NCBI RefSeq assembly: GCF_000337195.1
Contig: NZ_AOID01000011.1
Span: 1 to 38,027, forward strand
From: Natrinema versiforme JCM 10478
GTDB lineage: Archaea; Halobacteriota; Halobacteria; Halobacteriales; Natrialbaceae
DNA length: 38,027 nt
Direction of reading: 5' to 3'
Below, piece after piece: positions 18,301 through 31,326 of this stretch. Under the pieces are notes generated by a model. That model was not told where the DNA came from and searched no databases. It was given only the letters and a program-made list of their open reading frames with translations. The position numbers were made by a program, and so were the translations under genes. Positions within the stretch are counted from its first letter, which is position 1; every line of letters begins with the position of its first letter.

Positions 18301-19322
18301 TCCTCATCCGCGAGCACGCCGGCGAGTTCGTCGACGACGGGAGCGACTGCCTCGGGCGTCGCGTCCCCGACGGCGGCGATCGCCGCGACGCCGTGGCTCC
18401 GGACAGCGGGCTCGTCGCCGTCGAGTCGCCCCGCGAGCGGTTCGACGGCCGGTGCGACCGCGTCGGGCCGCTCCGCCGCCAGCGTCGCCAGCGCGGCGGC
18501 CGCGTCGATCCGAACCGACTCGAGGTCGTCCGCGAGCCGATCGACCAGCGGGTTGACGGCTGGTTCGACTGCGTTGGGAGCGCTCCCGGTAACGGCTCGG
18601 AGCGCGCTGACCGTCTCCCGCCGGACGGCGGCCTCGCCGTCGAGGCTGGCGGCCAGCGAGTCGACGACCTCGCTGACGGGTTCCGGCCGCTCCGCCGCGA
18701 CGGCCGCGAGCGCTGCCGCGGCGTCGGCGCGGACGGCGTCGCGGTCGTCGGTTAGTCCCGTCCCGAGGGGGTCGACTCCCGTCGTCACGTCCGAGGGCCG
18801 CTCGGCCGCGATCGAGCGGATCGCTCGAGCGGCGTGTTCCCTGATAGCGGGCTCGTCCTCGAGCCGGTCGACGAGTCGATCGATCGCGTCGATGACGGCA
18901 TCGGGATCCTGCGCCGCGACGACTGCGAGGATCGCCGTCGCGTTCTCCCGGACCGTCGCGGTCTCGTCGTCGGTCGCGGCCGCGACCGCGTCGGCGATCG
19001 ACACGACCCGCTCGGGGTCGGCGTCGGCGATCGCCGCGAGCGCGTCCGTCGTCCGCACTCGAACCCGCTCTTGCTCGTCCGTGACGTAGGCCGCGAGTTC
19101 CGCCGCGGAGTCGGCGACGGCGGTCGCCGAGTCGACGGCGATCGACGCGAGCGCGTCGGCCGCGTCCCCTCGCACCGCGGTCGATCCCTCGAGCCGGTCG
19201 GTCAGCGCCGGGACGGCGTCCCGCGTCTCCCTGGGATAGGCGGCCGCGACGGCCGACAGCGCCGCCGCCGCGTGCGATCTGATCGCCGGATCGTCCTCGA
19301 GGCAGTCGGTGAGCGACGCCAC
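15309..19322 (-). CDS. Giant HEAT-repeat / PQQ-like beta-propeller protein
   Basis: The intact frame encodes 1337 residues from the first in-frame start (GTG 19322). Residues 1 to about 960 form roughly 25 HEAT/PBS-lyase-like repeats of about 40 residues, each with a DD-x-x-VR-x-x-AA-x-AL core (for example DEDDDVRFEAARAIAAV). A linker WPMARAGAAGAG resembles the WPMFRGD entry of PQQ propellers, after which about seven blades run to the C-terminus (GDTVYVGG, WRFETD, ADGTVYVGS, YAVDAGTGAERW). There is no signal peptide or membrane helix, so it is likely a cytosolic scaffold. The gene is probably longer: the first repeat is encoded out of frame just upstream (see the 19344-19438 entry), giving about 1376 residues if one base is restored. 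Partner and function are unknown. Confidence 0.9.
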   Translation of the reverse strand: MASLTDCLEDDPAIRSHAAAALSAVAAAYPRETRDAVPALTDRLEGSTAVRGDAADALASIAVDSATAVADSAAELAAYVTDEQERVRVRTTDALAAIADADPERVVSIADAVAAATDDETATVRENATAILAVVAAQDPDAVIDAIDRLVDRLEDEPAIREHAARAIRSIAAERPSDVTTGVDPLGTGLTDDRDAVRADAAAALAAVAAERPEPVSEVVDSLAASLDGEAAVRRETVSALRAVTGSAPNAVEPAVNPLVDRLADDLESVRIDAAAALATLAAERPDAVAPAVEPLAGRLDGDEPAVRSHGVAAIAAVGDATPEAVAPVVDELAGVLADEDDDVRFEAARAIAAVAAVRPDAIRPVVSRLADRLDDPHEPVRRRAADALGELALADADDEDAVSALVDRLEDGDEWVRGHAARRLAEIAESRVADAHPAVRSLCRRLEHDDAAVRRSAARDLVPIAAERPREAREAVSPLGDRLADDDASVRNNAALALSRLAGTDPDEVRPALVGLFGAVDDPDRSVRATVRETLAAVAPVSRSDCRPPVALAVAETDADEEAVRIAACEALAALDLETGAETEAAVEAVCDLLVEPTTRVHTAALETLESLLEAPGETEPTAVEALTEIIAADDERATAAATALADIARANTDPIAEAATPLVERFRAATGDRRRALGRVLAAVVAETDRRPVTALLLDDLESAETGRASIAGEIARLAAASPDDAAASRDRLVAVLDDESEAVRGYAALALGTLALAGRDDGSALGDNLDSVDDRLLDAASLVGGGETPSHTDGINNQLSGLGNRLEDDPWAAGLSVLALGVLADESDSLRPTGVSKVAAGLAVESPIVRATAGRTLATMAADDPQGLEAATDELSAALSDPDADVRAAAAGTLADVAESTDELEAEADCVAAELRPLLADPDGRVRARAIRALTALEAGDSPSAIRALVDDPVPAVSSAATTAMDRLEDDDGSDEFDWPMARAGAAGAGSVGRGDALGGQPTKQWRVETVGTVDAPPALVGDTVFATSDDGSVTALALEDGDERWRFETDAPIGTTPAVVGDTVYVGGDAAVYALDIETGERRWRYRMDATVRTSPVVADGTVYVGSDTLHAIDADTGHPRWTAPLADSLVGVAVADGVAYAACSERVVAIAADGSRRWETPLELDGTVRTPPAVANGSVYVGCGGTLRALSTADGSRSFRFDTGGRFAASPAIADGTVYAASTDGSVYAVDAGTGAERWRVDAGEATTDPVVIDDTVCLGTGDGHVTALGTGNGSPQWELAVDGVPAVTAIAVASERLCLVGPDGITAIGDAQSSWKESISGLFTRFGNGSS

Positions 19323-19343
19323 CGCGGACCGAACGTTCGCCGG

Positions 19344-19438
19344 TCGGCCCGACCCTCGTTGGCCAGCGTCTTGGCCGCGTACTCCCTGACTTCGGGATCG
19401 TCGGCCGTGAGGAACTCCTCTAATTGATCGATACCCAC
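19344..19438 (-). pseudogene. Out-of-frame 5' segment of the HEAT-repeat gene (single-base frameshift)
   Basis: From GTG 19438 the minus strand encodes VGIDQLEEFLTADDPEVREY and then AAKTLANEGRAD, a perfect first HEAT repeat. It then goes out of frame with the main gene. Adding one C to the GACCGGCG at about 19342-19345 gives ...RAD-P-ANVRSAV..., which joins seamlessly to VASLTDCLEDDP. The break is therefore a one-base loss in a short C-run: a sequencing error, a real mutation or, less likely, recoding. The main frame has no ATG or GTG between its upstream stop and 19322. Confidence 0.72.
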
Positions 19439-19503
19439 GGTGACTTCGACTCCGTCCCCTCTCCGTCGCCCGCTCTGTTCGCTATATTATTTGGTTCTGA
19501 CAT
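19420..19503 (-). other. Short ORF overlapping the start of the HEAT-repeat gene
   Basis: An ATG at 19503 begins a 27-codon frame (MSEPNNIANRAGDGEGTESK and so on) that passes through GTG 19438 in another phase and stops at 19420. It follows an AT-rich promoter-like stretch. It could be an upstream overlapping ORF, or the true N-terminus if further bases are missing. The evidence is thin. Confidence 0.25.
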
Positions 19504-19650
19504 AGTGGTCCCTGTCTCACGGCGTGCGTGATTTCGGTACACGCAATCGCGTTGATAGTTGAACATATAGACGCACCCAGTTAATTCTACCTCCGGCAAA
19601 ACGAGATTCAACGTCGCGATCCGCGTGAACCGACGGAGCCGACCGCCGAT

Positions 19651-22131
19651 CTACGCCTTCGCCTGCCAGCTTCGGAGTCGATCGGCGCTGACGCCCTCAA
19701 CGTCGTCCGCGACCGCGTCGGGATCGGCGTCGGTCAGGTCCTCGAGGTCCTCGATCCCCGCGTCGGCGAGCTTCTCGACGGTCTTCGCGCCAACGCCGTC
19801 GATCGCCTCGAGGTCCGAGCCCGAGTCGCTCTCGCGGGCCTGGAACTCCTGATAGTTACAGATCGGACAGCCCAGTTCCCACGGTTCGTCGCCGCTGTGG
19901 ACGACGAGTTCGGGTAGCTCGTGCTCCTCGCAGTGTTCGTCGGTAACTTCGATGTCACCCCGGCGGGGCAGCGGCAGCGAGTACTCGCAGTCGGGGTAGC
20001 GCGTACAGCCGACGAGCCGCGAGCCGCTCTCGAGGGTTTTGACGGCGAGTTCGCCGCCGTGTTCCGAACCGCAGTCGGGACAGTCGCCCAGCACCGGCCC
20101 CTCGCCGGCGTCTTCGGCCTTACAGAGCGGGCAGCCGTGGACGAAGGTCTGGCGGCCCGCGAGCATCTTGACCTCGTTTAAGCCGTGTTTCTCGCACTCG
20201 TCCTCGAGGATGAGCGGTTTGCCGGTCGAGGGCAGCGGGAGCGTGTTCTCGCAGTCGGGATAGCCGTCACAGCCGATGAAATAGGAGCCGTGGCGGCTCC
20301 GGCGGACCAGCAGGTCCTCGCCGCACTCGGGACACGGGCCGAGCCGCTTGTCGTCTTTGAGCGACTTGCGGAGGTGGTCGCCGATCTCGTCTCTGGATTC
20401 GGCGAGGTTCTCGAAGATTTCCTCGAGCATCTCGCGGGACTCGTCAGTCACGTCGTCCAGGGTGGCCTCGCCGTTCGCGATGGCGTCCATGTCGGCCTCG
20501 AGCTGGGCCGTCATCTCTTCGCTGACGATCCGGTCGGCATAGTTCTCGGCCGCGTCCACGACGGCCATCGCGAGCTTCGTCGGCCGCGGCGGATCGCTCT
20601 CGATGTAGCCCCGATCGTAGAGCTTCTCGAGGGTGTTGTGCCGGGTGGACTTCGTGCCGATCCCCATCTCCTCCATGGTCTCGATGAGCCGCGACTGGCC
20701 GTATCGACGCGGCGGCTGGGTCTGTTTGTCCTCGAGTTCGACGCCGGAGAGCCCAAGTTCCTCGCCCTCGTCGACGTCGGGGACGAAGTTCTCCGTCGTG
20801 GAGAAGTAGGGATAGACGTCGTGGTAGCCGGGTTCGACCAGCCGCTTGCCGTTCGATTTGAGCCGGTGATCCTCGACTTCCGCGACGACCTTGAGGTGTT
20901 CCCACTCCGCGGCGTCGGCGACCGTCGCGTAGAAGCGACGCACGACGAGTTCGAAGACCTCCCACTCGTCGTCGCTCACGTCGCCGCGGGTCGGAATCTC
21001 GCCCGTGGGATGAATGGGCGGGTGGTCGGTCGTCTCCTCGTCGCCCTCGGTGGGGACGATGTCATCGGCCTCGAGCAGCGACTCGGCGCTCTCGCCGAGC
21101 GAGGGATGGCCGACGAACTCGTCCAAGAGGTCCTCGGGGTCGAGATCGTCGGGGTAGACGGTGTTGTCGGTCCGCGGGTAGGTGATGTAGCCGGCGGTGT
21201 AGAGGTCCTCGGCGATCGACATCGCCCGCTTGGCCGAGTAGCCGATGGCCCCCGCCGCGCGGATGAACTGGGTGGTGTTGAACGGCTCCGGTGGCGTGTC
21301 GGTACGGGTCCGCCGGTTGACATCGACGACGGTTGCCGCGTCGCGGTCGGCGAGGGTCTCGTAAACCTCGTCTGCCGTGGCCTCCTCCCAGATGCGTTCG
21401 GCCTCGTTGTCGTCCTCGTCGCGGTAGAAGTACTGCGTGCCGAAGGACATCTCGTCCTTTTCGAGGTCCGCGAAGAGTTCCCAGTAGTCCTCGGGATCGA
21501 AGGCCTGAATCTCGCGCTCGCGGTCGACGATCAGCTTCAGCGTCGGCGACTGGACCCGGCCGACGGAGATGAAGTCGTTGCCCAGTTGGCCCGCGGAGAG
21601 GGAGAGATAGCGGGTGAGCGCGGCCCCCCAGACGAGGTCGATGATCTGTCGGGCCTCCCCGGCCGCCGCGAGATCGAAGTCGAGTTCGTCGGGCTCGTCG
21701 AACGCGCTCTGGACCTCGTTTTCCGTGATCGAGGAGAACCGCACCCGGCGAATCGGCACGTCCTCGTCGACGTTCCGGACGATGTCGTAGGCCTCCTTGC
21801 CGATCAGTTCGCCCTCGCGGTCGTAGTCAGTCGCGATCGTCACACGGTTGGCACGACGGGACAGCAATCGCAGCGTCGCGACGATGTTCTCTTTCGTCGC
21901 CGTCTTCTCGACGCTCGCGTCGATCAGTTCGACCGGCTCGACGTCCCGCCAGTCGGAGTACTCCGAGGGGAAGTCGACGCCGACGACGTGGCCCGACAGC
22001 CCCACGCAGCGCTTGCCGCCCCACTCGTAGACGTTGACGCCGTTCTCGCGACTCGAGTCGTAGGTCCCGCCGCTCAGAATGTCGGCGATCCGCCGGGCGG
22101 CGTTGTCCTTCTCCGTGATGATCAGCTCCAC
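19651..22131 (-). CDS. topA: DNA topoisomerase I (type IA)
   Basis: The protein has 826 residues. The N-terminal Toprim domain carries Glu7 (IITEKDN) and TDYDREGE at 101-108. The cleavage domain has the active-site Tyr318 in AGYITYPRTD, and helix motifs GRVQSPTLKLIVDRE and MGIGTKSTRHNTLEKLYDRGY are typical of archaeal/bacterial topoisomerase I. From about residue 620 there are four C4-type zinc ribbons (CPECG..CDGYPDC; CEKH..CPLC; CPDCG..CTRYPDC; CEEH..CPIC). The C-terminus is a helix-hairpin-helix domain (AIDGVGAKTVEKLADAGIED). It relaxes negative supercoils. The added HhH is a haloarchaeal trait that probably aids DNA grip in salt. It is upstream of the HEAT gene on the same strand with a 212-base gap. 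Confidence 0.97.
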   Translation of the reverse strand: MELIITEKDNAARRIADILSGGTYDSSRENGVNVYEWGGKRCVGLSGHVVGVDFPSEYSDWRDVEPVELIDASVEKTATKENIVATLRLLSRRANRVTIATDYDREGELIGKEAYDIVRNVDEDVPIRRVRFSSITENEVQSAFDEPDELDFDLAAAGEARQIIDLVWGAALTRYLSLSAGQLGNDFISVGRVQSPTLKLIVDREREIQAFDPEDYWELFADLEKDEMSFGTQYFYRDEDDNEAERIWEEATADEVYETLADRDAATVVDVNRRTRTDTPPEPFNTTQFIRAAGAIGYSAKRAMSIAEDLYTAGYITYPRTDNTVYPDDLDPEDLLDEFVGHPSLGESAESLLEADDIVPTEGDEETTDHPPIHPTGEIPTRGDVSDDEWEVFELVVRRFYATVADAAEWEHLKVVAEVEDHRLKSNGKRLVEPGYHDVYPYFSTTENFVPDVDEGEELGLSGVELEDKQTQPPRRYGQSRLIETMEEMGIGTKSTRHNTLEKLYDRGYIESDPPRPTKLAMAVVDAAENYADRIVSEEMTAQLEADMDAIANGEATLDDVTDESREMLEEIFENLAESRDEIGDHLRKSLKDDKRLGPCPECGEDLLVRRSRHGSYFIGCDGYPDCENTLPLPSTGKPLILEDECEKHGLNEVKMLAGRQTFVHGCPLCKAEDAGEGPVLGDCPDCGSEHGGELAVKTLESGSRLVGCTRYPDCEYSLPLPRRGDIEVTDEHCEEHELPELVVHSGDEPWELGCPICNYQEFQARESDSGSDLEAIDGVGAKTVEKLADAGIEDLEDLTDADPDAVADDVEGVSADRLRSWQAKA

Positions 22132-22501
22132 CGGGGATCACCTCGCGATCCTCGAGCGGGTCGCCGTCCCCGCGGGCGAGTGTCGGTCATTGTGGCTCGG
22201 TACGAGTGAGCATCTGATAACGTTTTCGCCGAAACCGGCCGACAGCGCGGGTGTGCGTGCGGTCGCGTTACGTGCGTGCCGCGTCGCGTGCGCGTGGACC
22301 GTGTACGACCGCTGGCTGATCGCTGCCCGGTCACGACTCGGCTGCTCGCACTGGCCGCGAGCCGATAGCTGCTGGCGAACAACCACGACGACTGCAGGTC
22401 TCGCGACGACGCTCCTGTCTCGAGAGCCGCTCACGGCGGGTGTCGACGGGCGATCGCAGCGACGACAGACTTAATACTACTCGGTAGTATCACTAGGTTG
22501 T
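22132..22501. promoter_or_regulatory. Divergent topA/thi4 intergenic region
   Basis: The 370-base region between the divergent topA and thi4 genes has no supportable CDS. Its thi4-proximal end holds the promoter and palindrome listed separately. Mid-region sequence (22250-22440) is Cys/Arg-codon rich in all frames and looks non-coding. No TPP riboswitch-like conserved core (CUGAGA / ACCUGA-type elements) is apparent in front of thi4. Confidence 0.45.
22470..22490 (+). promoter_or_regulatory. thi4 promoter with perfect 17-bp palindrome (candidate ThiR operator)
   Basis: ATACTAC-TCG-GTAGTAT at 22474-22490 is a perfect 7+7 inverted repeat. It overlaps the TATA-like CTTAATACT (22470-22478), about 28 bases before the thi4 ATG at 22502, so thi4 is probably leaderless. 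A repressor bound here would cover both TATA and start site. HTH-ThiN regulators (ThiR) are known to control archaeal thiamine genes, and one is encoded at 25448-26347. The binding link is inference. Confidence 0.6.
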
Positions 22502-23431
22502 ATGAGCCAATTCGAGCAGTTCAGTCAGGTGGGCGAAGCCGATGTCACCCGCGCGATCGGACAGGAGTGGACCGAGGAGTTCATGGACTTCTCGGACTCG
22601 GACGTCATCATCGTCGGCGGCGGCCCCTCGGGGCTCACGGCGGCGAAGGAACTCGCAGAGCGCGGTGTCAAGGTGATGGTCGTCGAGAAGAACAACTACC
22701 TCGGCGGGGGCTTCTGGCTCGGCGGATTCCTGATGAACAAGGTCACGGTCCGGGACCCGGCCCAGAAAGTCCTCGACGAACTCGAGGTCGACTACAAGCA
22801 GTCCCAGGACAGCGAGGGGCTCTACGTCGCGAACGGTCCTGAAGCCTGTTCCGGGCTGATCAAGGCCGCCTGCGACGCGGGGGCAAAGATGCAGAACATG
22901 ACCGAGTTCACCGACATCGTCATTCGCGAGGACCACCGCGTCGGCGGCATCGTCATGAACTGGACGCCGGTCCACGCGCTGCCCCGCGAGATCACCTGCG
23001 TCGATCCGATCGCGGTCGAGGCCGATCTGGTCATCGACGCGACCGGCCACGACGCGATGGCGGTCAAGAAACTCGACGAGCGCGGCGTCCTCGACGCGCC
23101 CGGTATCGCCGATGCCGAGGAAAACGCGACCGGCATGGACAGCACCGGCGACGACACCTACGGCGCGCCCGGCCACGACTCGCCCGGCCACGACTCGATG
23201 TGGGTTGGCGAGAGCGAGGACGCCGTCGTCGAGCACACCGGCCTCGTCCACGACGGCCTCATCGCGACCGGGATGGCGACCGCGACGACCTACGGCCTCC
23301 CGCGGATGGGGCCGACCTTCGGAGCCATGCTCGTCTCGGGCAAACGCGCCGCACAGGTCGCACTCGACGAACTCGAGGTCGACGCCGACCCCGTCGAACT
23401 GACCTCGCGTGCGGCCCCGGCCGACGACTGA
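22502..23431 (+). CDS. thi4: Thiamine thiazole synthase THI4, active-site Cys present
   Basis: The protein has 309 residues. The FAD/NAD-binding GxGxxG-type loop is [19 protein letters not shown] (35-53), then [15 protein letters not shown]; the C-terminal [20 protein letters not shown] closes the dinucleotide site. THI4 makes the ADP-thiazole of thiamine from NAD, glycine and sulfur. Cys166 (REITCVDP) aligns with the sulfur-donor Cys of yeast THI4 and Cys165 reported as essential in Haloferax volcanii. It is therefore the suicide type rather than the Cys-less sulfide-dependent methanogen type. A Ser/His/Asp-rich loop ([14 protein letters not shown]) lies before [11 protein letters not shown]. 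It leads an operon with the zinc protein 16 bases downstream. Confidence 0.96.
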
Positions 23432-23447
23432 CCGCGGACCCCGCTGT

Positions 23448-24212
23448 ATGGTCGATCGACTCATCTGCTACCGCGCGCCGTCGACGGTCGCCTCGGTCAA
23501 GGAGATCGCCGACTGGCTGCGAGCGCGGATCGACGCCGACGTGACCGTCCGGGACCGCTTCCTCGATGTCCACCGCACGGACGACCTCGCCGAGCGGTTC
23601 GCCGAGGCGCGGGTCCCCTCGTCGTCCGACCGCGAGACGGGCAACACGATGCTCGGGACGATCCGCTACGAGGAACGCGCCCTCGAGAACCCCGAGCGCG
23701 AGGGCGGCGTGCTCTACGACGGCACGGCGGTCCAGCGCGCGCTCAACGACGCGCTTCCGGCCGATCAACGGGGCCTCGAGACGCTGCATGTCCCCGTTCT
23801 CGATCGGGCGATCGGAACGTGGGGCGACCACGACGGCCGTTGGCACAAGCGCGTGAACGTCCTCGGACAGCCGGCGCTCGTCTCGGTTCCCGGCCTCTAC
23901 GAGGCACCCGCAAAGCCCGAGGCCTATTACGAGGAGAAACAGCGCCACGCCCTCTTGTCGGGGGAGACGCCGCCGCGGGAAGTCCTCGAGAACCAGGTCG
24001 AGGGCGAGTTCCTGATCGAGGACGATCCGCGAACCACCGACGCGCTGAAGGGGTACGTCCTGCAGGGCTATCACTTCCTCGAGACGGGCGAGGCGTTCTG
24101 CGATCGGGAGGGCTGCCGGCTATACAACGCGCACTACCACGAGGAGCTGATCGACGCCCAACTCCGAGAACCCGCCTTCTGCAGCGACCACGCGCGGCGC
24201 TACGCACCCTGA
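23448..24212 (+). CDS. Putative archaemetzincin-like zinc protein (DUF6775-type family)
   Basis: This 254-residue soluble protein starts at the ATG at 23448. I recognise the family as an archaeal putative metallopeptidase (DUF6775-type): LVSVPGLYEAPAKPEAYYEEKQ, then DDPRTTDALKGYVLQGYHFL, then the C-terminal cluster AFCDREGCRLYNAHYHEEL followed by AFCSDH. The cluster gives C-x4-C-x21-C-x2-H, reminiscent of the structural zinc site of archaemetzincins. The catalytic HExxH of true archaemetzincins is not visible, so protease activity is unproven. It follows thi4 by 16 bases on the same strand, so co-transcription is likely and a role in thiamine metabolism is plausible. The family call is from memory. 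Confidence 0.82.
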   Translation: MVDRLICYRAPSTVASVKEIADWLRARIDADVTVRDRFLDVHRTDDLAERFAEARVPSSSDRETGNTMLGTIRYEERALENPEREGGVLYDGTAVQRALNDALPADQRGLETLHVPVLDRAIGTWGDHDGRWHKRVNVLGQPALVSVPGLYEAPAKPEAYYEEKQRHALLSGETPPREVLENQVEGEFLIEDDPRTTDALKGYVLQGYHFLETGEAFCDREGCRLYNAHYHEELIDAQLREPAFCSDHARRYAP

Positions 24213-24261
24213 TCATGCGACCGGTGCGTATTTTTGTCCCGATCGCCTCCGACAACCTACA

Positions 24262-24672
24262 ATGAGTGCTGAGTTTACCGTCGACGTTTCCGTCCGCTAT
24301 CGCGATCTCGATCCGCTGAACCACGTCAACCACGCCGTCTACGCGAGCTACCTCGAGGTCGCCCGAACCGCGTATCTCGAGGAGGTCGTCGACGTAGCTG
24401 CCGAGGACATCTCTTTCGTCCTCGCAAACCTCGAAATCTCCTACGAGCGGCCGATCACGATGGGCGACGACCCCACGGTCGCGGTCTCCGTCTCGCGGCT
24501 CGGGGACTCGAGTTGTACCATGGCATACGAGATCCGCGTCGACGGCGACATCGCGGCGACCGCCGAGACGACGATGGTCCACATCGATCCCGAGACGAGG
24601 CGACCGAGTTCGATCCCGGACCCGATGGCCCAGCGCATCCGGAACCGCGAGGAACTCGAGGCGGCGGCCTGA
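24262..24672 (+). CDS. Acyl-CoA thioesterase, hotdog fold (4HBT family)
   Basis: This is a 136-residue single-hotdog protein. The 4-hydroxybenzoyl-CoA thioesterase signature reads VRYRDLDPLNHVNHAVYASYLEVAR (11-35), with Asp15/Asp17 near the catalytic position and the His-Val-Asn-His turn. The remaining strands include ISYERPITMGDDPTVAVSV and CTMAYEIRVDG. It hydrolyses acyl-CoA thioesters, probably as a tetramer; chain length is unknown. It starts 49 bases after the zinc protein on the same strand, with a T-run between (TATTTTTG at about 24231), so it may have its own promoter. No link to thiamine is evident. Confidence 0.93.
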   Translation: MSAEFTVDVSVRYRDLDPLNHVNHAVYASYLEVARTAYLEEVVDVAAEDISFVLANLEISYERPITMGDDPTVAVSVSRLGDSSCTMAYEIRVDGDIAATAETTMVHIDPETRRPSSIPDPMAQRIRNREELEAAA

Positions 24673-24699
24673 TCGCCCGGCAGTTGACAGTCGGTCGCC

Positions 24700-25422
24700 T
24701 CACTCGAGTCGCCCGGCAGTGAGCCGAACGACGCCGAAGACGTGCGTTTCGTCCGCGATGGCGACCGATCGCTCACGGAGCTGGGCGTGTGCGGTATCGA
24801 TCTTTTCGTCGAGTTGGAGGTGCGGATCGTTCTCGTATCGGAGCCGCGTCGTCGGCGGCGTCGAGAGGACGACGATCGCCCGGAAGACGGCGTTGACCGG
24901 CGGCGCGTACCACTCCCGGCTCCGGGCTGCGTTGGCGAGGACGACGGTACCGTCGGGGCCGACGAGATCGCACCAGTCGTCGACCGCGCCGGCCGGGTCC
25001 GCGAGCATGCCGACGACGAACGTCCCGAGGACGGCGTCGATCGCGTCACCCTCCACAACCCCCTGTAGCGTCCCGCTCTCGCTGCCCTCGCCGCCCCCGC
25101 CGCTCCCGACCGGCGGCTGCGTCGCGTCCCCCTGCAGAACGTGGACGTTGTCGTACGCCGCGGTGGCCTCGCGGGCCCGCTCGAGGACGGGCCGCGTGAA
25201 ATCGATCCCGATGACGGTCCCCGCGGGGCCGACCCGCTCGCGGAGGAACGGCAGGTTCGCGCCGGTGCCACAGCCCATCTCGACGACGGTGTCGCCGGGC
25301 TCGAGGCGGCAGGCGGCGGCTGCGCGTTGTCGAAGTCCGGCGATTCCCGGCGTTCGGCGCGCGATGAGGTCGTAGAGACGCGCCCAGCGACCGTAGAACT
25401 CCTGTGCTGATTCGGTCGTCAT
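24700..25422 (-). CDS. Class I SAM-dependent methyltransferase (UbiE-like)
   Basis: The protein has 240 residues. The N-terminus AQEFYGRWARLYDLIARR is the lead helix of UbiE/COQ5-like methyltransferases. Motif I is VVEMGCGTGANLPFLRE (46-62), motif II acidic VIGIDFTRPVLERARE, then VHVLQGDATQPP. A Gly/Glu-rich low-complexity insert follows (GSGGGGEGSESG), then AIDAVLGTFVVGMLADP and GTVVLANAAR. The target could be a quinone, phospholipid or small molecule. It is tail-to-tail with the thioesterase and 25 bases downstream of the ThiN regulator, same strand, so it is possibly co-transcribed with that gene. Confidence 0.92.
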   Translation of the reverse strand: MTTESAQEFYGRWARLYDLIARRTPGIAGLRQRAAAACRLEPGDTVVEMGCGTGANLPFLRERVGPAGTVIGIDFTRPVLERAREATAAYDNVHVLQGDATQPPVGSGGGGEGSESGTLQGVVEGDAIDAVLGTFVVGMLADPAGAVDDWCDLVGPDGTVVLANAARSREWYAPPVNAVFRAIVVLSTPPTTRLRYENDPHLQLDEKIDTAHAQLRERSVAIADETHVFGVVRLTAGRLE

Positions 25423-25447
25423 GAAGAGCAGTTCGGGGTCCGGGCGG

Positions 25448-26347
25448 TCAGATGAGCGAGCGGATCGTCTCCGCGATCGACTCCGCGTCGGTGTCGAGGA
25501 CGTAGATCAGCGGCTCGATTCCCATGCCGCCGGTCTGGTAGAGCACCGTCGCTTCGGGCTCGTCCTCGATCGCCGCGCCGACGCTCGAGGCGACGTCGCC
25601 GGACTCGTCGAACTCGGCGGCGACGTGGCCCTGCTCGGTCAGTTCGTCGATCAGTTCGGAGTCGTACGTGATGTTGATCGCCGCCGAGACGTCCGCGCCG
25701 TGGCGGCGCGCGGCCAGCAGCACCCGTGCGACGTGTTCGGAGACGCCGAACTCGGGGTCCGCGGGGACCGTCGCCTGCCCTTTCACGTCGAAGATCCGGC
25801 CGGGGACGCCCGCGACATCGTCGACGGTCTCTGCGTCCGGCGTACAGGCCACCAGATTCGAGCCGACTGCGGGAATCAGACCTGTGAATCCGCTCGCGGT
25901 CTCAAGCATGCCCAGTCCGCGCCGGAGCGAGGAGAGCACGCGCTCGCTGGTCCGGAGGTCGCTCTCGGGGTCGTGCACCCGGAAACTCGAGCCGTGATCG
26001 GCGAGTTCCGGCACGGCCTCCTCGTGGAGTTGGGCAAGCAGGTCCCCGCCGGACTCGAGTTCGCGGATCAGGACCTCGATCTCGATCAGCGCCTGGACGG
26101 GCGAAATGTCGCCGGTCGCCAGCCCGCTTCCGAGTTCGTCGACGAGGTCACGAATCCGGTCGTCCTCGGCGATGCGATCGTTGACGGTCACGTCGCCGTG
26201 GGCGTACTTCGAAACGGCGCTCTGGCTGATCCCGAGCACGTCGGCGACCTCGCTCTGCGTGAGCCCCCGGTCCCGCAGATCGCCGGCGAGCAGCGACCGG
26301 ATGGTCGGGAGGAACTCGTCCACGACGATTTCTTCGGCGAATTGCAT
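25448..26347 (-). CDS. thiR: HTH-ThiN transcriptional regulator of thiamine genes (ThiR type)
   Basis: The protein has 299 residues. Residues 25-52 are an Xre-like HTH (DRGLTQSEVADVLGISQSAV, then SKYAHG). A helical linker leads to a ThiN domain from about 130 to 299: LIPAVGSNLVAC, VPGRIFDVKG, FGVSEHVARVLLAARRHG, AAINITYD and YQTGGMGIEPLIYVL. ThiN is the thiamine-phosphate synthase fold. Fused to HTH it acts as the archaeal regulator ThiR, sensing a thiamine phosphate. Arg184 and His205 keep the 21-residue spacing of the Arg/His pair described as catalytic in ThiDN enzymes (from memory). So ligand binding, and perhaps residual activity, is likely. The palindrome before thi4 is its obvious candidate target. 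Confidence 0.9.
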   Translation of the reverse strand: MQFAEEIVVDEFLPTIRSLLAGDLRDRGLTQSEVADVLGISQSAVSKYAHGDVTVNDRIAEDDRIRDLVDELGSGLATGDISPVQALIEIEVLIRELESGGDLLAQLHEEAVPELADHGSSFRVHDPESDLRTSERVLSSLRRGLGMLETASGFTGLIPAVGSNLVACTPDAETVDDVAGVPGRIFDVKGQATVPADPEFGVSEHVARVLLAARRHGADVSAAINITYDSELIDELTEQGHVAAEFDESGDVASSVGAAIEDEPEATVLYQTGGMGIEPLIYVLDTDAESIAETIRSLI

Positions 26348-26451
26348 TCGTTGCCGGAGGCTACGGGCGGCCGACGGGATAACTTATCGGTCCGATCGGC
26401 GGGGCCGACTCGAGCGCGGGGCCGACGCGGATCGAACCGGACGCGTTCGGC

Positions 26452-27057
26452 TTAGAAGACGACCGGCGCGACGAGCGACGCGAACTCGTAGGTGAAGACG
26501 TGGTTGAGCAGGGCGTACGTGACGACCCCGAGGAAGAGGCTCAGGATCCACGCGCCGGCGGCGATTCGGCCGACGCGGGCGTGTGGCGTCTGCCGGAGTT
26601 CGGCGGGCGTGTGGCTCAGGCCGAGGACCAGCGCGTAGAGGACGACCGGAACCGAGACGATCGAGAGGATGATGTGGATCGCCAGCATCACGAGGTAGGC
26701 GTAGTAGACCCCCTGGGGCCCGACGAACTCCTTCGTCCCGCCGCCGCCGACCTTGAGCAGGTAGACGACCAGAAAGCCGAGGATCAACACGAACCCGCTG
26801 ATCATCGCGAGCCGGTGTTTCTCGACCTCGCCGGCGCGGATCCAGTACCAGCCGAGTGTCAACACCACCGTTGCGGTCGTGTTGATGACCGCGATCACGT
26901 GCGACAGCAGATCGACCTGTGCGTTCGTCAGGTCGGGATAGATCGGGATATCGAGGAGGAAGGTCCCGATGACCAGCGCGTACCCGATGATCGTCAGGAG
27001 AATCGTTACGCCCATCGGCCGCTCGCGGAGCCGCCGTCTCGCGTCAGCGGTTGCCAT
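26452..27057 (-). CDS. DUF420 family membrane protein (CtaM/YozB-like)
   Basis: This 201-residue protein starts at the ATG at 27057 (MATADARRRLRERP). The longer open frame extends into the J-domain gene and is not real there. It has five or six hydrophobic helices, with conserved His/Lys elements in LLSHVIAVINTTATVVLTLGWY, GEVEKHRLAMISGF and YLVMLAIHIILSIVSVP. It ends LNHVFTYEFASL. DUF420 proteins include S. aureus CtaM, needed for heme-copper oxidase maturation. A role with the CtaA-CtaB fusion is plausible though the two genes are 24 kb apart. It lies 80 bases downstream of the J-domain gene on the same strand. Confidence 0.9.
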   Translation of the reverse strand: MATADARRRLRERPMGVTILLTIIGYALVIGTFLLDIPIYPDLTNAQVDLLSHVIAVINTTATVVLTLGWYWIRAGEVEKHRLAMISGFVLILGFLVVYLLKVGGGGTKEFVGPQGVYYAYLVMLAIHIILSIVSVPVVLYALVLGLSHTPAELRQTPHARVGRIAAGAWILSLFLGVVTYALLNHVFTYEFASLVAPVVF

Positions 27058-27137
27058 TAGCGGTCCTTCGGAGCACCGCCGTATCACGCTTGCTGTTCCG
27101 GTATCGACCGCGGGGACGCCGTCGCCGGCCTCGTGGC

Positions 27138-27899
27138 TCAGTCCCGTTCGAAGGGAAGCCGATTGAGCCGCTCGCGAACGAGGGGTTTCAGCTCGAAGAG
27201 GTAGCGCTCGGTGTCGGCAATGTCGTCGCCCTCCTCGTCGGGAACGTGTTGGGCGTACATGACCTGCTCGACGGCCACGTCGTCGGGCATCTCCTGTGCG
27301 ATGACGACCGCGTCCAGCGCTCGCCCCGGCTCGAGGGTGATATCGGTTCCGACCCACCGCTCCGGCAGGTCGGTGGCGTGGGGGGCGACGATGCTCGAGC
27401 CCTCGTAGAGGAAGCCGTCGTCCCCGATGAAGCTCGTGTTCGTCTTCCCCCGCCACGGGAGCGACTGGGAACTCGTGTTGTGGACGCGGAAGAACGCGAC
27501 CGTCCGCGTCGTCGCCGCCGTGACGGGACCGTCGACCAGCGACGCGAGGTCGACGTCGTGGACCAGGCCTGCGAGCGCGAGCGTGAGGTACTCGCTGCTG
27601 ACGGTCAGTTCGTGGGTCCGGTCGCGGTCGCGTCCCTCGCGCCCGTCCGGGTCGTAAGTCGGTTGCTGTCGGGGTTGGGAGCCGTCGCCGCCCCGCGTAA
27701 TGGCACCGCCGTCCGTTTCGCGTTCGTTGGGTACCCGCTCGCCGAGGATCGCCTCGTAGGCGTCCTTGATCTGCAGAAATTGCTCTCGAGAGCCGCCCTG
27801 ATCCGGATGATGGGTCTTCAGAAGCGTCCGGTAGGCTCGCCGAACCGCCCGCTCGTCGGCGTCCGGCGATAGCCCCAGGACGTCGTAGTGGCGCTCCAC
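27138..27899 (-). CDS. J-domain (DnaJ-like) protein with beta-rich C-terminal domain
   Basis: The protein has 253 residues from GTG 27899 (VERHYDVLGLSPDADERAVRRAYR). An in-frame ATG at 27965 would add 22 residues with no J-domain character. The J domain covers 1-60 with the essential HPD at 31-33 (KTHHPDQGG), so it should stimulate an Hsp70 (DnaK). A charged linker (about 65-95) leads to a region of predicted strands (HELTVSSEYLTLALAG, TVAFFRVHNTSSQSLPW, TDITLEPGRALDAVVIAQ). This region lacks DnaJ's Gly/Phe and zinc-finger parts, so it is a specialised co-chaperone rather than DnaJ itself. Its client is unknown. Confidence 0.88.
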   Translation of the reverse strand: MERHYDVLGLSPDADERAVRRAYRTLLKTHHPDQGGSREQFLQIKDAYEAILGERVPNERETDGGAITRGGDGSQPRQQPTYDPDGREGRDRDRTHELTVSSEYLTLALAGLVHDVDLASLVDGPVTAATTRTVAFFRVHNTSSQSLPWRGKTNTSFIGDDGFLYEGSSIVAPHATDLPERWVGTDITLEPGRALDAVVIAQEMPDDVAVEQVMYAQHVPDEEGDDIADTERYLFELKPLVRERLNRLPFERD

Positions 27900-28018
27900 G
27901 ATGAACCCATTCGTTCCTTGGCCGAAAAGAGTCTTTCTCCCTGCATCGCTCGCGGTCGTCGTCACTCACTCGAGTTCAGTAGGAGTACCGTCACTCGGTC
28001 ACTCCGCAGAGAACGGGC

Positions 28019-28312
28019 TCACTCGGTCGGTTCGGTCGGGTCCTCGAGCAGGACGCGTCCGTCGTGAGAGACGGTCACGTCGTAGCCACAGAACCGAAAG
28101 GAGACGTTTCCGCGGGACCTCCGCATGCCGTTCGGTCGATCCGCGAAGAGCGCGTCGAGTGCCGTCGGATCGACGACCGCGTGGAGCGGTTCGTACGTCG
28201 GCGGCGAGACATCCGTCGGCGACACGTCTTCCGCCTCGGCGACCGCTTCGATAACCGCTTGGCTCGGTGCCCGCCGAGACGATGCGCCGACGCTACCGCC
28301 ACCCTCACCCAT
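28019..28312 (-). CDS. HalOD1 output-domain protein
   Basis: The protein is 97 residues long. After a Gly/Ser-rich start, residues 17-90 match the haloarchaeal HalOD1 domain: SQAVIEAVAEAEDVSPTDV, then YEPLHAVVDPTALDALFADR and the strand pair GNVSFRFCGYDVTVSHDG. HalOD1 occurs as an output domain of haloarchaeal response regulators or, as here, alone. Its biochemical action is not established. A GGAGAG ribosome-binding site lies just before the ATG at 28312, and an AT-rich TTTTATTC about 30 bases upstream would be the promoter. It is monocistronic. Confidence 0.88.
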   Translation of the reverse strand: MGEGGGSVGASSRRAPSQAVIEAVAEAEDVSPTDVSPPTYEPLHAVVDPTALDALFADRPNGMRRSRGNVSFRFCGYDVTVSHDGRVLLEDPTEPTE

Positions 28313-28566
28313 CGTCTCTCTCCTTCTGAACCCCGTTGAATAAAACTGTCCTTCCCGACCTCACGGTCCGATCGCGACACACCGGGTGACTGAACGGGGG
28401 ACGTGAACGTGGGACGCCAATGAACCGACGCGGATAGCGAGGGTCAATTCCGACACCGGAACGGGAGTTATCGGCGGGATACAGCGAGTAGTGACGGACA
28501 ACAGTGACCGCACGCACTCGAGAACGGGGACGACGGATCCCGATCATCCGAACACCGACTCAGTCG

Positions 28567-31326
28567 TTAGCTGATGTGGATCGCGGGTTTGCCGGGCCGG
28601 GCCTTGGCCGCCTGCTCGTCGTCGGCCGACGCCCGGCTGACAGTGACCCCCGCACCGAACTCGTCGGTGACGAGCCACGACGCGCGCTCGAGGATCGCCC
28701 GCTCGCGGTCGGCCGCGAGCAACTGATCGCGTTCCGTTCCGCCGTCGCGCTCGAGGAGGTCCGCGACGAATGCCCCGACCCGCTCGCGGTCGACCGCCCC
28801 CTCGAGGGAGTCGTCCGCGAGGACCTGCTCGACGACCGAATCGACGTCGCTGACCGTGCCATCGCCGGTCGCTGCAGTCTGACTGAGCAACTCCGCGGTC
28901 CGGTACTTCCAATCGGGGGCGACGACCAGTTCGATCCGCTCGGCTTCGTCGATCGCGGCGACGTCGACGATGTCCCGGACGTCCTCGAGCGTGCGGTCGA
29001 CGAGCCGGCGCTCGAGTTGGACCGCCGAGACCTCACGTTCGGGCTCGGGCCAGTCGGCTTCGACGGCGAGGCCCTCGCCGCGGAGCTTGTTCCAGAGTTC
29101 CTCGCCGAGGTGCGGTGCCATCGGGGCGATCAGCGCGGCCAGCGTCAACAGCCCACGCCGGTAGACGTCGCCGTGTGGGCCGTCGTACTCGCGGTAGCGC
29201 CGGAGCAGGCGCGCGAGTTCCTGAATTTCGGTGGCGGCTCGGTGGAACCGGAACCGCTCGTACTCCTCGGTGACCGCGGCGATCGTCCGGTCGATCTCCC
29301 GAGCGACGTAGTCGTCGTGATCGCGGCGCTCGACGCGGGCGTCGCCCTCCTCGACGAAGTCGGTCGCCATCCGGTAGAGGGTCTGCTGGAGGTCGTAGGC
29401 CCCGCGGACGTTGTTGGCGGTCCACTCGAAGTCCTGTTCGGGGTGGGCCGCCGAGAGCACGAACAGCCGAGTCGTCTCCGCGCCGTACTCCTCGGGTGCG
29501 ACGACGTTGCCCTTCGAACTGGACATCTTCTCGCCGTCGTAGAGCACCGTCCCCTGGCTCAGCAGTTCCCGGATCGGCTCCCGCCGCTCGAGCAGGCCGA
29601 GGTCGGCAAGCGCCTTCGTGAAAAAGCGGGTGTAGAGCAGGTGCAGGATGGCATGTTCGTCGCCGCCGACGTAGACGTCGATCGGGAGCCAGTCGTCCGC
29701 GAGGTCGGTGTCGAAGGGGGCGTCGGCCAGATCGGGCGAGAGGAAGCGCAGGTAGTACCACGAGGAGTCGACGAAGGTGTCCATCGTGTCCGTCTCGCGG
29801 CGGGCGGGGCCGCCACAGTCGGGACAGGTCGTCTCGTTCCACTCCTCGGCGGCGTCGAGCGGATTGCCCGTAGTCCGGACGAACTCCGGGAGTTCGACGG
29901 GCAGCTCCTCGTCGGGCACGGGGACGCGGCCGCAGTCGTCGCAGTGGACCATCGGGATCGGCGTCCCCCAGTAGCGCTGCCGGGAGATGAGCCAGTCCCG
30001 GAGCCGGTAAGTCACGTCGTCTTCGAGCGCGTCGTGGTCCGCGACGATCCGGTCGCCGGCCGCCTCGCTCGCGAGGCCGTCGTACTCGCCGCTTCCCTCG
30101 AGGACGCCGTCGCCGGTGTAGGCCTCGGTTTCGACATCCTGTTCGTCCGATCCCTCAGGGTCGATCACGCGCTCGATCGGCAGGTCGTGTTCGCGCGCGA
30201 AGGAGTGACCCCGCTCGTTGTGCCCGGGAACGCCCATCACGGCCCCGGTGCCGACATCCTCGAGGACGTAGCCGGCGACGTAGACGGGGAGTTCCGCGCC
30301 GGTCAGCGGGTGGATCGCGGTCGCGTCGGTTTCGACGCCGGAGAAGCCGACCGACTCGGGGTCTCGCTCGCGGACGGTGTCGACGTAGTCGGCGACATCG
30401 TCGTCCGACTCGGCGAGCGCGCGGGCGAGGTCGTGACCGGGGGAGACCGCGAGGTAGGTCGCGCCGTAGACCGTCTCCGGCCGGGTGGTGAACACGTCGA
30501 CGGTTTCGGGTCCGTCGCCGTCTCCGATATCACCGCGGTCGCCGCTGTAGGCTTCCATTTCGAACGTGATCCGGGCCCCTTCCTGCCGGCCGATCCAGTT
30601 GCGCTGGATCTCCCGGACGCCGTCGGGCCACCCCTCGAGGTCGTCCAGTCCGTCGTGGAGTTCCTCGGCGTAGTCGGTGATCGTGAAGAACCACTGGTCG
30701 AGCTCGCGCCGCCCGACGGGGGTGTCACACCGCCAGCAAACGCGGGTCCCATCGCTGCTCGCGGCTTCGCCGCTCCCCTGATCCGAGGGCTCACTGTGTT
30801 CGTCCTCGCGCTCGACGACCTGCGCGTCGGCGAGCACCGTCTCGCAGTCCGGACACCAGTTGACCGCCGCCGCCTCGTACTCGACGAGGCCGGCCTCGTA
30901 GAGCCGCTTGAACAGCCACTGGTTCCACCGGTAGTAGTCGGGTTCACTGGTGGTAATCTCTCGAGACCAGTCGTACCCGAAGCCCATGGTCTCGAGTTCC
31001 TCGCGCATGCGCCGGATACAGGCCTGGGTCCACGATTCCGGGTCTGTCTTGCGCTCGAAGGCCGCGTTTTCGGCCGGTAACCCGAACGCGTCCCACCCCA
31101 TCGGGTGGAGGACGTCGTCGCCCTGCATGCGACGATAGCGCGAGTAGGCGTCGGTGATCGCGTAGTTGCGGACGTGCCCCATGTGGAGCGTGCCCGACGT
31201 GTAGGGAAACATGCCGAGGACGTAGGTCGGATCGGCGGCGTCGGCATCGAGCGCGTAGACGTCGTCGCGCTCCCAGACGTACTGCCAAAACTCCTGTACC
31301 TGCGCGTGATCGTAATGACTCGTCAT
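28567..31326 (-). CDS. leuS: Leucyl-tRNA synthetase, bacterial type
   Basis: The protein has 919 residues. Class I motifs are HMGH at 48-51 in MFPYTSGTLHMGHVRNYAI and KMSSS at 601-605 (EKMSSSKGNVV). DVLHPMGWDAFGLPAENAA, a zinc-type CPDCETVLADAQV, and a CP1 editing domain with TTRPETVYGATYLAV (the conserved Thr-Arg-rich discriminator) identify LeuRS. Wording around HMGH and the order of motifs follow the bacterial rather than the archaeal-eukaryotic type, as known for haloarchaea. Asp/Glu-rich insertions (EREDEHSEPSDQ; DPEGSDEQDVETE) are salt adaptations. It charges tRNA-Leu with leucine and edits mischarged tRNA. It is divergent from the acidic membrane protein. Confidence 0.97.
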   Translation of the reverse strand: MTSHYDHAQVQEFWQYVWERDDVYALDADAADPTYVLGMFPYTSGTLHMGHVRNYAITDAYSRYRRMQGDDVLHPMGWDAFGLPAENAAFERKTDPESWTQACIRRMREELETMGFGYDWSREITTSEPDYYRWNQWLFKRLYEAGLVEYEAAAVNWCPDCETVLADAQVVEREDEHSEPSDQGSGEAASSDGTRVCWRCDTPVGRRELDQWFFTITDYAEELHDGLDDLEGWPDGVREIQRNWIGRQEGARITFEMEAYSGDRGDIGDGDGPETVDVFTTRPETVYGATYLAVSPGHDLARALAESDDDVADYVDTVRERDPESVGFSGVETDATAIHPLTGAELPVYVAGYVLEDVGTGAVMGVPGHNERGHSFAREHDLPIERVIDPEGSDEQDVETEAYTGDGVLEGSGEYDGLASEAAGDRIVADHDALEDDVTYRLRDWLISRQRYWGTPIPMVHCDDCGRVPVPDEELPVELPEFVRTTGNPLDAAEEWNETTCPDCGGPARRETDTMDTFVDSSWYYLRFLSPDLADAPFDTDLADDWLPIDVYVGGDEHAILHLLYTRFFTKALADLGLLERREPIRELLSQGTVLYDGEKMSSSKGNVVAPEEYGAETTRLFVLSAAHPEQDFEWTANNVRGAYDLQQTLYRMATDFVEEGDARVERRDHDDYVAREIDRTIAAVTEEYERFRFHRAATEIQELARLLRRYREYDGPHGDVYRRGLLTLAALIAPMAPHLGEELWNKLRGEGLAVEADWPEPEREVSAVQLERRLVDRTLEDVRDIVDVAAIDEAERIELVVAPDWKYRTAELLSQTAATGDGTVSDVDSVVEQVLADDSLEGAVDRERVGAFVADLLERDGGTERDQLLAADRERAILERASWLVTDEFGAGVTVSRASADDEQAAKARPGKPAIHIS

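Follow-up and report, generated by a model that had tools for sequence, protein, structure and literature searches.

A putative thiamine operator made of two overlapping palindromes at the thi4 promoter of Natrinema versiforme and other haloarchaea

The window, i.e. the whole stretch of 38,027 nucleotides of Natrinema versiforme JCM 10478 DNA analysed here, carries on its forward strand the gene for the thiazole synthase Thi4 (22502..23431; PF01946, 2.5e-62), which contains an active-site cysteine (TCVDP), a residue essential in Thi4 of Haloferax volcanii (PMC4215014). The region upstream of thi4 contains a palindrome, ATACTAC-TCG-GTAGTAT, and an earlier sequence-only reading had proposed that it overlaps a TATA-like box and serves as the operator of a compact thiamine circuit controlled by a ThiR-type repressor. 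The question raised by this locus is whether the site is an operator, how far it extends and which protein would read it. The palindrome was confirmed, with no mismatch, at 22474-22490, the wider interval originally given (22470-22501) being a frame around it. It begins 28 bp 5' of the ATG and does overlap a TATA-like sequence, cTTAATA (22470..22476, forward strand), which lies about 28 bp from the ATG and is identified by its sequence and by a T-rich stretch conserved at positions -31 to -28 in the orthologous promoters.

Palindromy alone was dismissed as a sign of significance, since perfect 7-3-7 palindromes total 13 in the window. Similarly, a search of the parental genome for the 17-mer palindrome, allowing 3 mismatches, was uninformative, with 36 matches against 29 for the reversed control. 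The significance of the site therefore comes from its position and conservation.

Conservation was evaluated on the promoters of the 80 nearest haloarchaeal Thi4 loci, aligned together with that of the window. In all 81 a composite sequence of 30 bp starts at exactly -28, with a consensus of approximately ATAYYAC-NNN-GTRRTAYYAC-NNN-GTRRTAT. In the window it corresponds to ATACTAC TCG GTAGTATCAC TAG GTTGTAT (22474..22503, forward strand) and is composed of four half-sites, arranged as two overlapping 7-3-7 palindromes with 13 bp between their centres, neither of which is assigned to a strand. Box 1 (22474..22490) is the palindrome described above and overlaps the TATA region; box 2 (GTATCAC-TAG-GTTGTAT, 22487..22503), which had been missed by the sequence-only reading, spans the presumed transcription start and the start codon, of which it contains the AT. 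When 7-3-7 pairing was averaged over the 81 promoters, the highest peak was found at -15 (5.36 of 7 pairs) and the second at -28 (3.05), the median of all positions being 1.73. Box 2, with consensus ATACCAC-CTA-GTTGTAT, is the better conserved of the two palindromes and averages 5.3 pairs among 74 distinct thi4 sites, against 3.1 for box 1. In this genome the situation is reversed, box 1 being perfect and box 2 pairing in 4 of 7 positions; a perfect box 1 is found here only, in 1 of the 74 sites. In the orthologues, the left arm of box 1 (ACYAC, from -26 to -22) is conserved, at over 90% in several positions, whereas the right arm is weak in most thi4 promoters, and box 1 may consequently represent a half-site and not a complete second site. 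The proposal of a 17-bp operator must thus be abandoned, the operator being 30 bp long and the perfect palindrome its less conserved half: in the orthologous promoters the exact palindrome is absent, and what recurs is the composite.

The relatives compared are not independent, and their kinship was reduced by counting distinct sites, by leave-genus-out training and by order-level sampling. A matrix trained on thi4 promoters from other genera assigned a score of 31.5 to the window site, while no unrelated place elsewhere in the window exceeded 4.6 and the maximum over 60 simulated windows was 8.0. The fixed offset and the spacing of about 28 bp between cTTAATA and the ATG are consistent with a leaderless thi4 transcript, and a leaderless mRNA has no room for a riboswitch. 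As in the sequence-only reading, no TPP riboswitch was detected ahead of thi4, Rfam giving no match at gathering score within 19000-29000, and riboswitch control of thi4 was dismissed on this basis; this negative result likewise fits a leaderless transcript.

The composite is shared by the thiC promoters, where it starts at -30 relative to the start codon of 27 of the 30 loci and at -28 or -29 in the other three, one of which (L108) is doubtful. The composite is counted at -28 to -30 in 29/30. The thiC TATA box (TTTATAA) falls within its left arm. A matrix built on thi4 sites only, from which the start-codon columns had been removed, gave the thiC box the top rank in 29 of the 30 loci, two of these boxes being read on the opposite strand. 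A sequence-only model built from both thi4 and thiC sites (R1) was used to scan genomes: thi4 and thiC are the leading places in the parental genome and supply nearly all of the strongest matches in 29 genomes of the genus. These matches are partly circular, because R1 was trained on the same sites; the test with the thi4-only matrix and the matches at DUF6775, tenA, thiE and thiDN genes are free of this circularity. For an order-level scan of 97 genomes, 40 stronger matches outside the genus were hand-picked from the list and the corresponding genes were identified by translated comparison and Pfam. All 40 selected matches lie upstream of thiamine-related genes: thi4 (22, one of which, L254, has an offset of 13), thiC (11), the tenA family (4), thiE, thiDN and a thiamine-binding protein gene (one each). 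The expectation that the site would recur at thi4, thiC and other thiamine promoters was therefore borne out by the composite.

Some operator-like sites were found at other genes. The third-best match of the parental genome (L171:2541; G000:C2:9541-9570) is located about 54 bp 5' of a gene for an NRAMP-family metal transporter, and such a gene is accompanied by an operator-like site in two more genomes of the genus (L176, L177); a connection with the metal requirement of Thi4 is possible. In two genomes of the genus (L173:1810 and L174:1944) an operator-like site lies 5' of a gene for a TPP-dependent E1 alpha dehydrogenase. A strong composite operator, scoring 28 bits by the local matrix, was also observed at L172:1643 (G011:C7), with no clear gene recognised alongside.

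In the window, thi4 is followed by a second cistron on the same strand (23448..24212), encoding a protein of the DUF6775/DUF7001 family (PF20565, 1e-101). DUF6775 loci were divided into those split from thi4, i.e. separated from it by more than 100 bp or differing in orientation, and those adjacent, up to 72 bp behind it. The split genes carry a composite operator of their own, at -28, -30 or -31, in 37/41 loci, as compared to 0/22 for the adjacent genes and 2/53 for control thiR upstream regions; no DUF6775 site had been used for matrix training. The DUF6775 gene thus appears to belong to the thi4 operator regulon, and the circuit controlled by the operator would extend beyond thi4 to thiC and DUF6775 and, in some lineages, to thiE, thiDN and tenA. 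Of the compact circuit originally proposed, the operator and the nearby ThiR-type gene are retained, within a system which is larger.

The ThiR-type gene is located on the reverse strand at 25448..26347, and its end lies 2.0 kb past the thi4 stop; its product does combine an N-terminal HTH (HTH_3, 1.4e-6) with a C-terminal ThiN domain (2.4e-49; residues 141-296), and lacks a ThiD domain. The ThiN domain matches those of MJ0236 (2php) and of another archaeal protein (2pb9). Regulators are reportedly told from enzymes by the loss of a methionine in a helix of the catalytic ThiDN, and the alignment to the ThiDN of the same genome shows that its STMGWG segment is missing from the window ThiR; by this rule, its ThiN domain is predicted to be non-catalytic. 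Of the 15 named genomes that were searched, 14 gave an orthologue with 56-88% identity, the one without being a MAG, and this type is commonly encoded near thi4. An upstream scan revealed no operator 5' of thiR, either in the window or in 51/53 orthologues, and autoregulation was dismissed on these grounds. A second HTH-ThiN paralogue, which shares about 39% identity with the window ThiR, is encoded elsewhere in the genome (L184:2444-3550, on contig C51), next to a mevalonate-kinase-like gene; its type was found in about 9 of the 15 named genomes, with no match in the other 6.

A thiamine operator of the ThiR type, as first suggested, seems to be the best explanation for a composite present at 81/81 thi4 and 29/30 thiC promoters, and we put at about 0.9 the probability that the thi4 site is a thiamine-responsive operator of this kind. 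Other readings of the conserved block were weighed against it. Box 2 could be the sole ThiR site, with box 1 no more than the TATA box and perfectly palindromic in this genome by accident, as the low mean pairing of box 1, its single perfect instance and its overlap with the TATA region would suggest. However, -28 remains the second most palindromic position of the promoters, a TATA box has no need of the conserved ACYAC, and thiC and DUF6775 promoters show the identical two-box arrangement in the same 13-bp register, all of which makes this reading unlikely. That the block is a signal for the leaderless start or for translation, and no repressor site, might be supposed from the thi4 start codon falling inside box 2, but is extremely improbable: the block usually ends just 5' of the ATG in thiC and DUF6775 promoters (offsets -28 to -31), it is still detected by matrices devoid of the start codon, it is lacking from the control thiR promoters, and, being palindromic in structure, it is confined to the genes of thiamine metabolism.

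As to the protein which reads the operator, the C51 paralogue, having both HTH and ThiN domains, might do so, either alone or together with the window ThiR, and in Halosimplex thi4 has as its divergent neighbour a gene for a protein of this type (63-66% identity). Against this stand the common location of the window type close to thi4 and the 6 of 15 genomes without a match of the paralogue type, e.g. those of Natronorubrum bangense and Halorussus aquaticus, which retain both a window-type ThiR and the conserved thi4 operator. Since the operator persists where the paralogue was not found, the window-type ThiR is the better fit as reader of the site, and a role of the paralogue is distinctly unlikely.

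Starting from recognition of the composite by the window-type ThiR, the arrangement of the site suggests a mechanism. When thiamine phosphates are plentiful, ThiR would occupy the 30-bp composite, the two overlapping palindromes being most likely bound by two dimers or one tetramer. As the TATA region falls under box 1, and the presumed transcription start and the start codon of a leaderless mRNA under box 2, the bound protein would exclude TBP/TFB and RNA polymerase, so that the pre-initiation complex could not form, and both thi4 and the trailing DUF6775 gene would be shut off. Binding, stoichiometry, ligand, repression and the leaderless start are all predictions from sequence.

Regulation of this ThiR type is already known. 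In Haloferax volcanii, a HTH-ThiN repressor encoded near thi4 reportedly represses leaderless thi4 and thiC through an operator, without a riboswitch; this system resembles that of the window in the position of the HTH-ThiN gene and in having no riboswitch, and differs in that PF20565 was not found in that genome. Archaeal ThiR regulons, Halobacteria included, are reported to feature, 5' of thiamine genes, palindromic motifs whose consensus differs between lineages, a description which the present operator resembles. The TPP riboswitches of bacteria and Thermoplasmatales concern the same genes and the same class of effector as the window system, but act at the RNA level.

The conservation pattern of the operator yielded, as a new by-product, a link between DUF6775 and Thi4. 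In a sample of the phylum, the family was found in 33/296 genomes. In all 7 of the non-haloarchaeal genomes containing it, the gene is located directly 3' of the Thi4 gene, from a 14-bp overlap to a 21-bp gap, and its Thi4 partner is of the Cys type (TCVDP or ACVDP); in comparison, 15 of 16 alignable Thi4s from genomes without DUF6775 are of the His type and one of the Cys type (Fisher p = 3e-5, with no correction for relatedness). No DUF6775 gene was found behind the Cys-type Thi4 of genome G231, where the ORF that follows shows no sequence relationship to it. Cys-type Thi4 does not strictly require the partner, as PF20565 was not found in the Haloferax volcanii control genome, although Thi4 is of the Cys type there (PMC4215014). 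In addition, the genomes listed for f5 and f12, two haloarchaeal families within the order, gave no match. DUF6775 copies with in-frame stops were observed in two family members (G033:C1:1103983-1104717 and G301:C1:923626-924156), so that in some Natrialbaceae-like genomes the gene appears to be degenerating.

The predicted fold of the DUF6775 protein (pLDDT 79.8, pTM 0.80) is shared with the archaemetzincin AmzA (2x7m, 3zvs, 3lmc; Foldseek probability 1.00). The HEXXH zinc-protease motif, unlike in M54 archaemetzincins, is absent from all of 70 DUF6775 sequences, which are therefore not M54-type peptidases by motif, and the hypothesis of a protease acting on spent Thi4 is weakened; a CX4C...CX2H motif is kept in 69 of the 70. 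A literature search returned no paper naming DUF6775 or DUF7001, and none containing both archaemetzincin and thiamin. To our knowledge, no helper or recycling factor has been described for the suicide form of Thi4. THI4 is metal-dependent, and genes for non-Cys THI4 abut those of TRASH-family metal-binding proteins (PMC8454699), which, like DUF6775, are small, contain cysteines and are encoded beside Thi4. The two differ in that their folds are unrelated and in that DUF6775 partners the Cys-type enzyme, while TRASH proteins are found beside archaeal non-Cys THI4. From the metal dependence and the TRASH neighbours, the foremost conjectures are that DUF6775 handles metal or else deals with the spent Cys enzyme. 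We favour, with modest confidence, a ThiR-controlled accessory dedicated to the Cys-type, single-turnover Thi4, which would either load its metal or recognise, dispose of or restore the enzyme.

For haloarchaea, these results provide an exact, class-wide description of the putative thiamine operator, as two overlapping palindromes held in fixed register over the TATA region and the start. The two-box layout predicts how ThiR would dock and which bases should be mutated. Used as a detector, the operator assigns the uncharacterised DUF6775 family to thiazole synthesis and ties it, as a probable partner, to the suicide enzyme Thi4.
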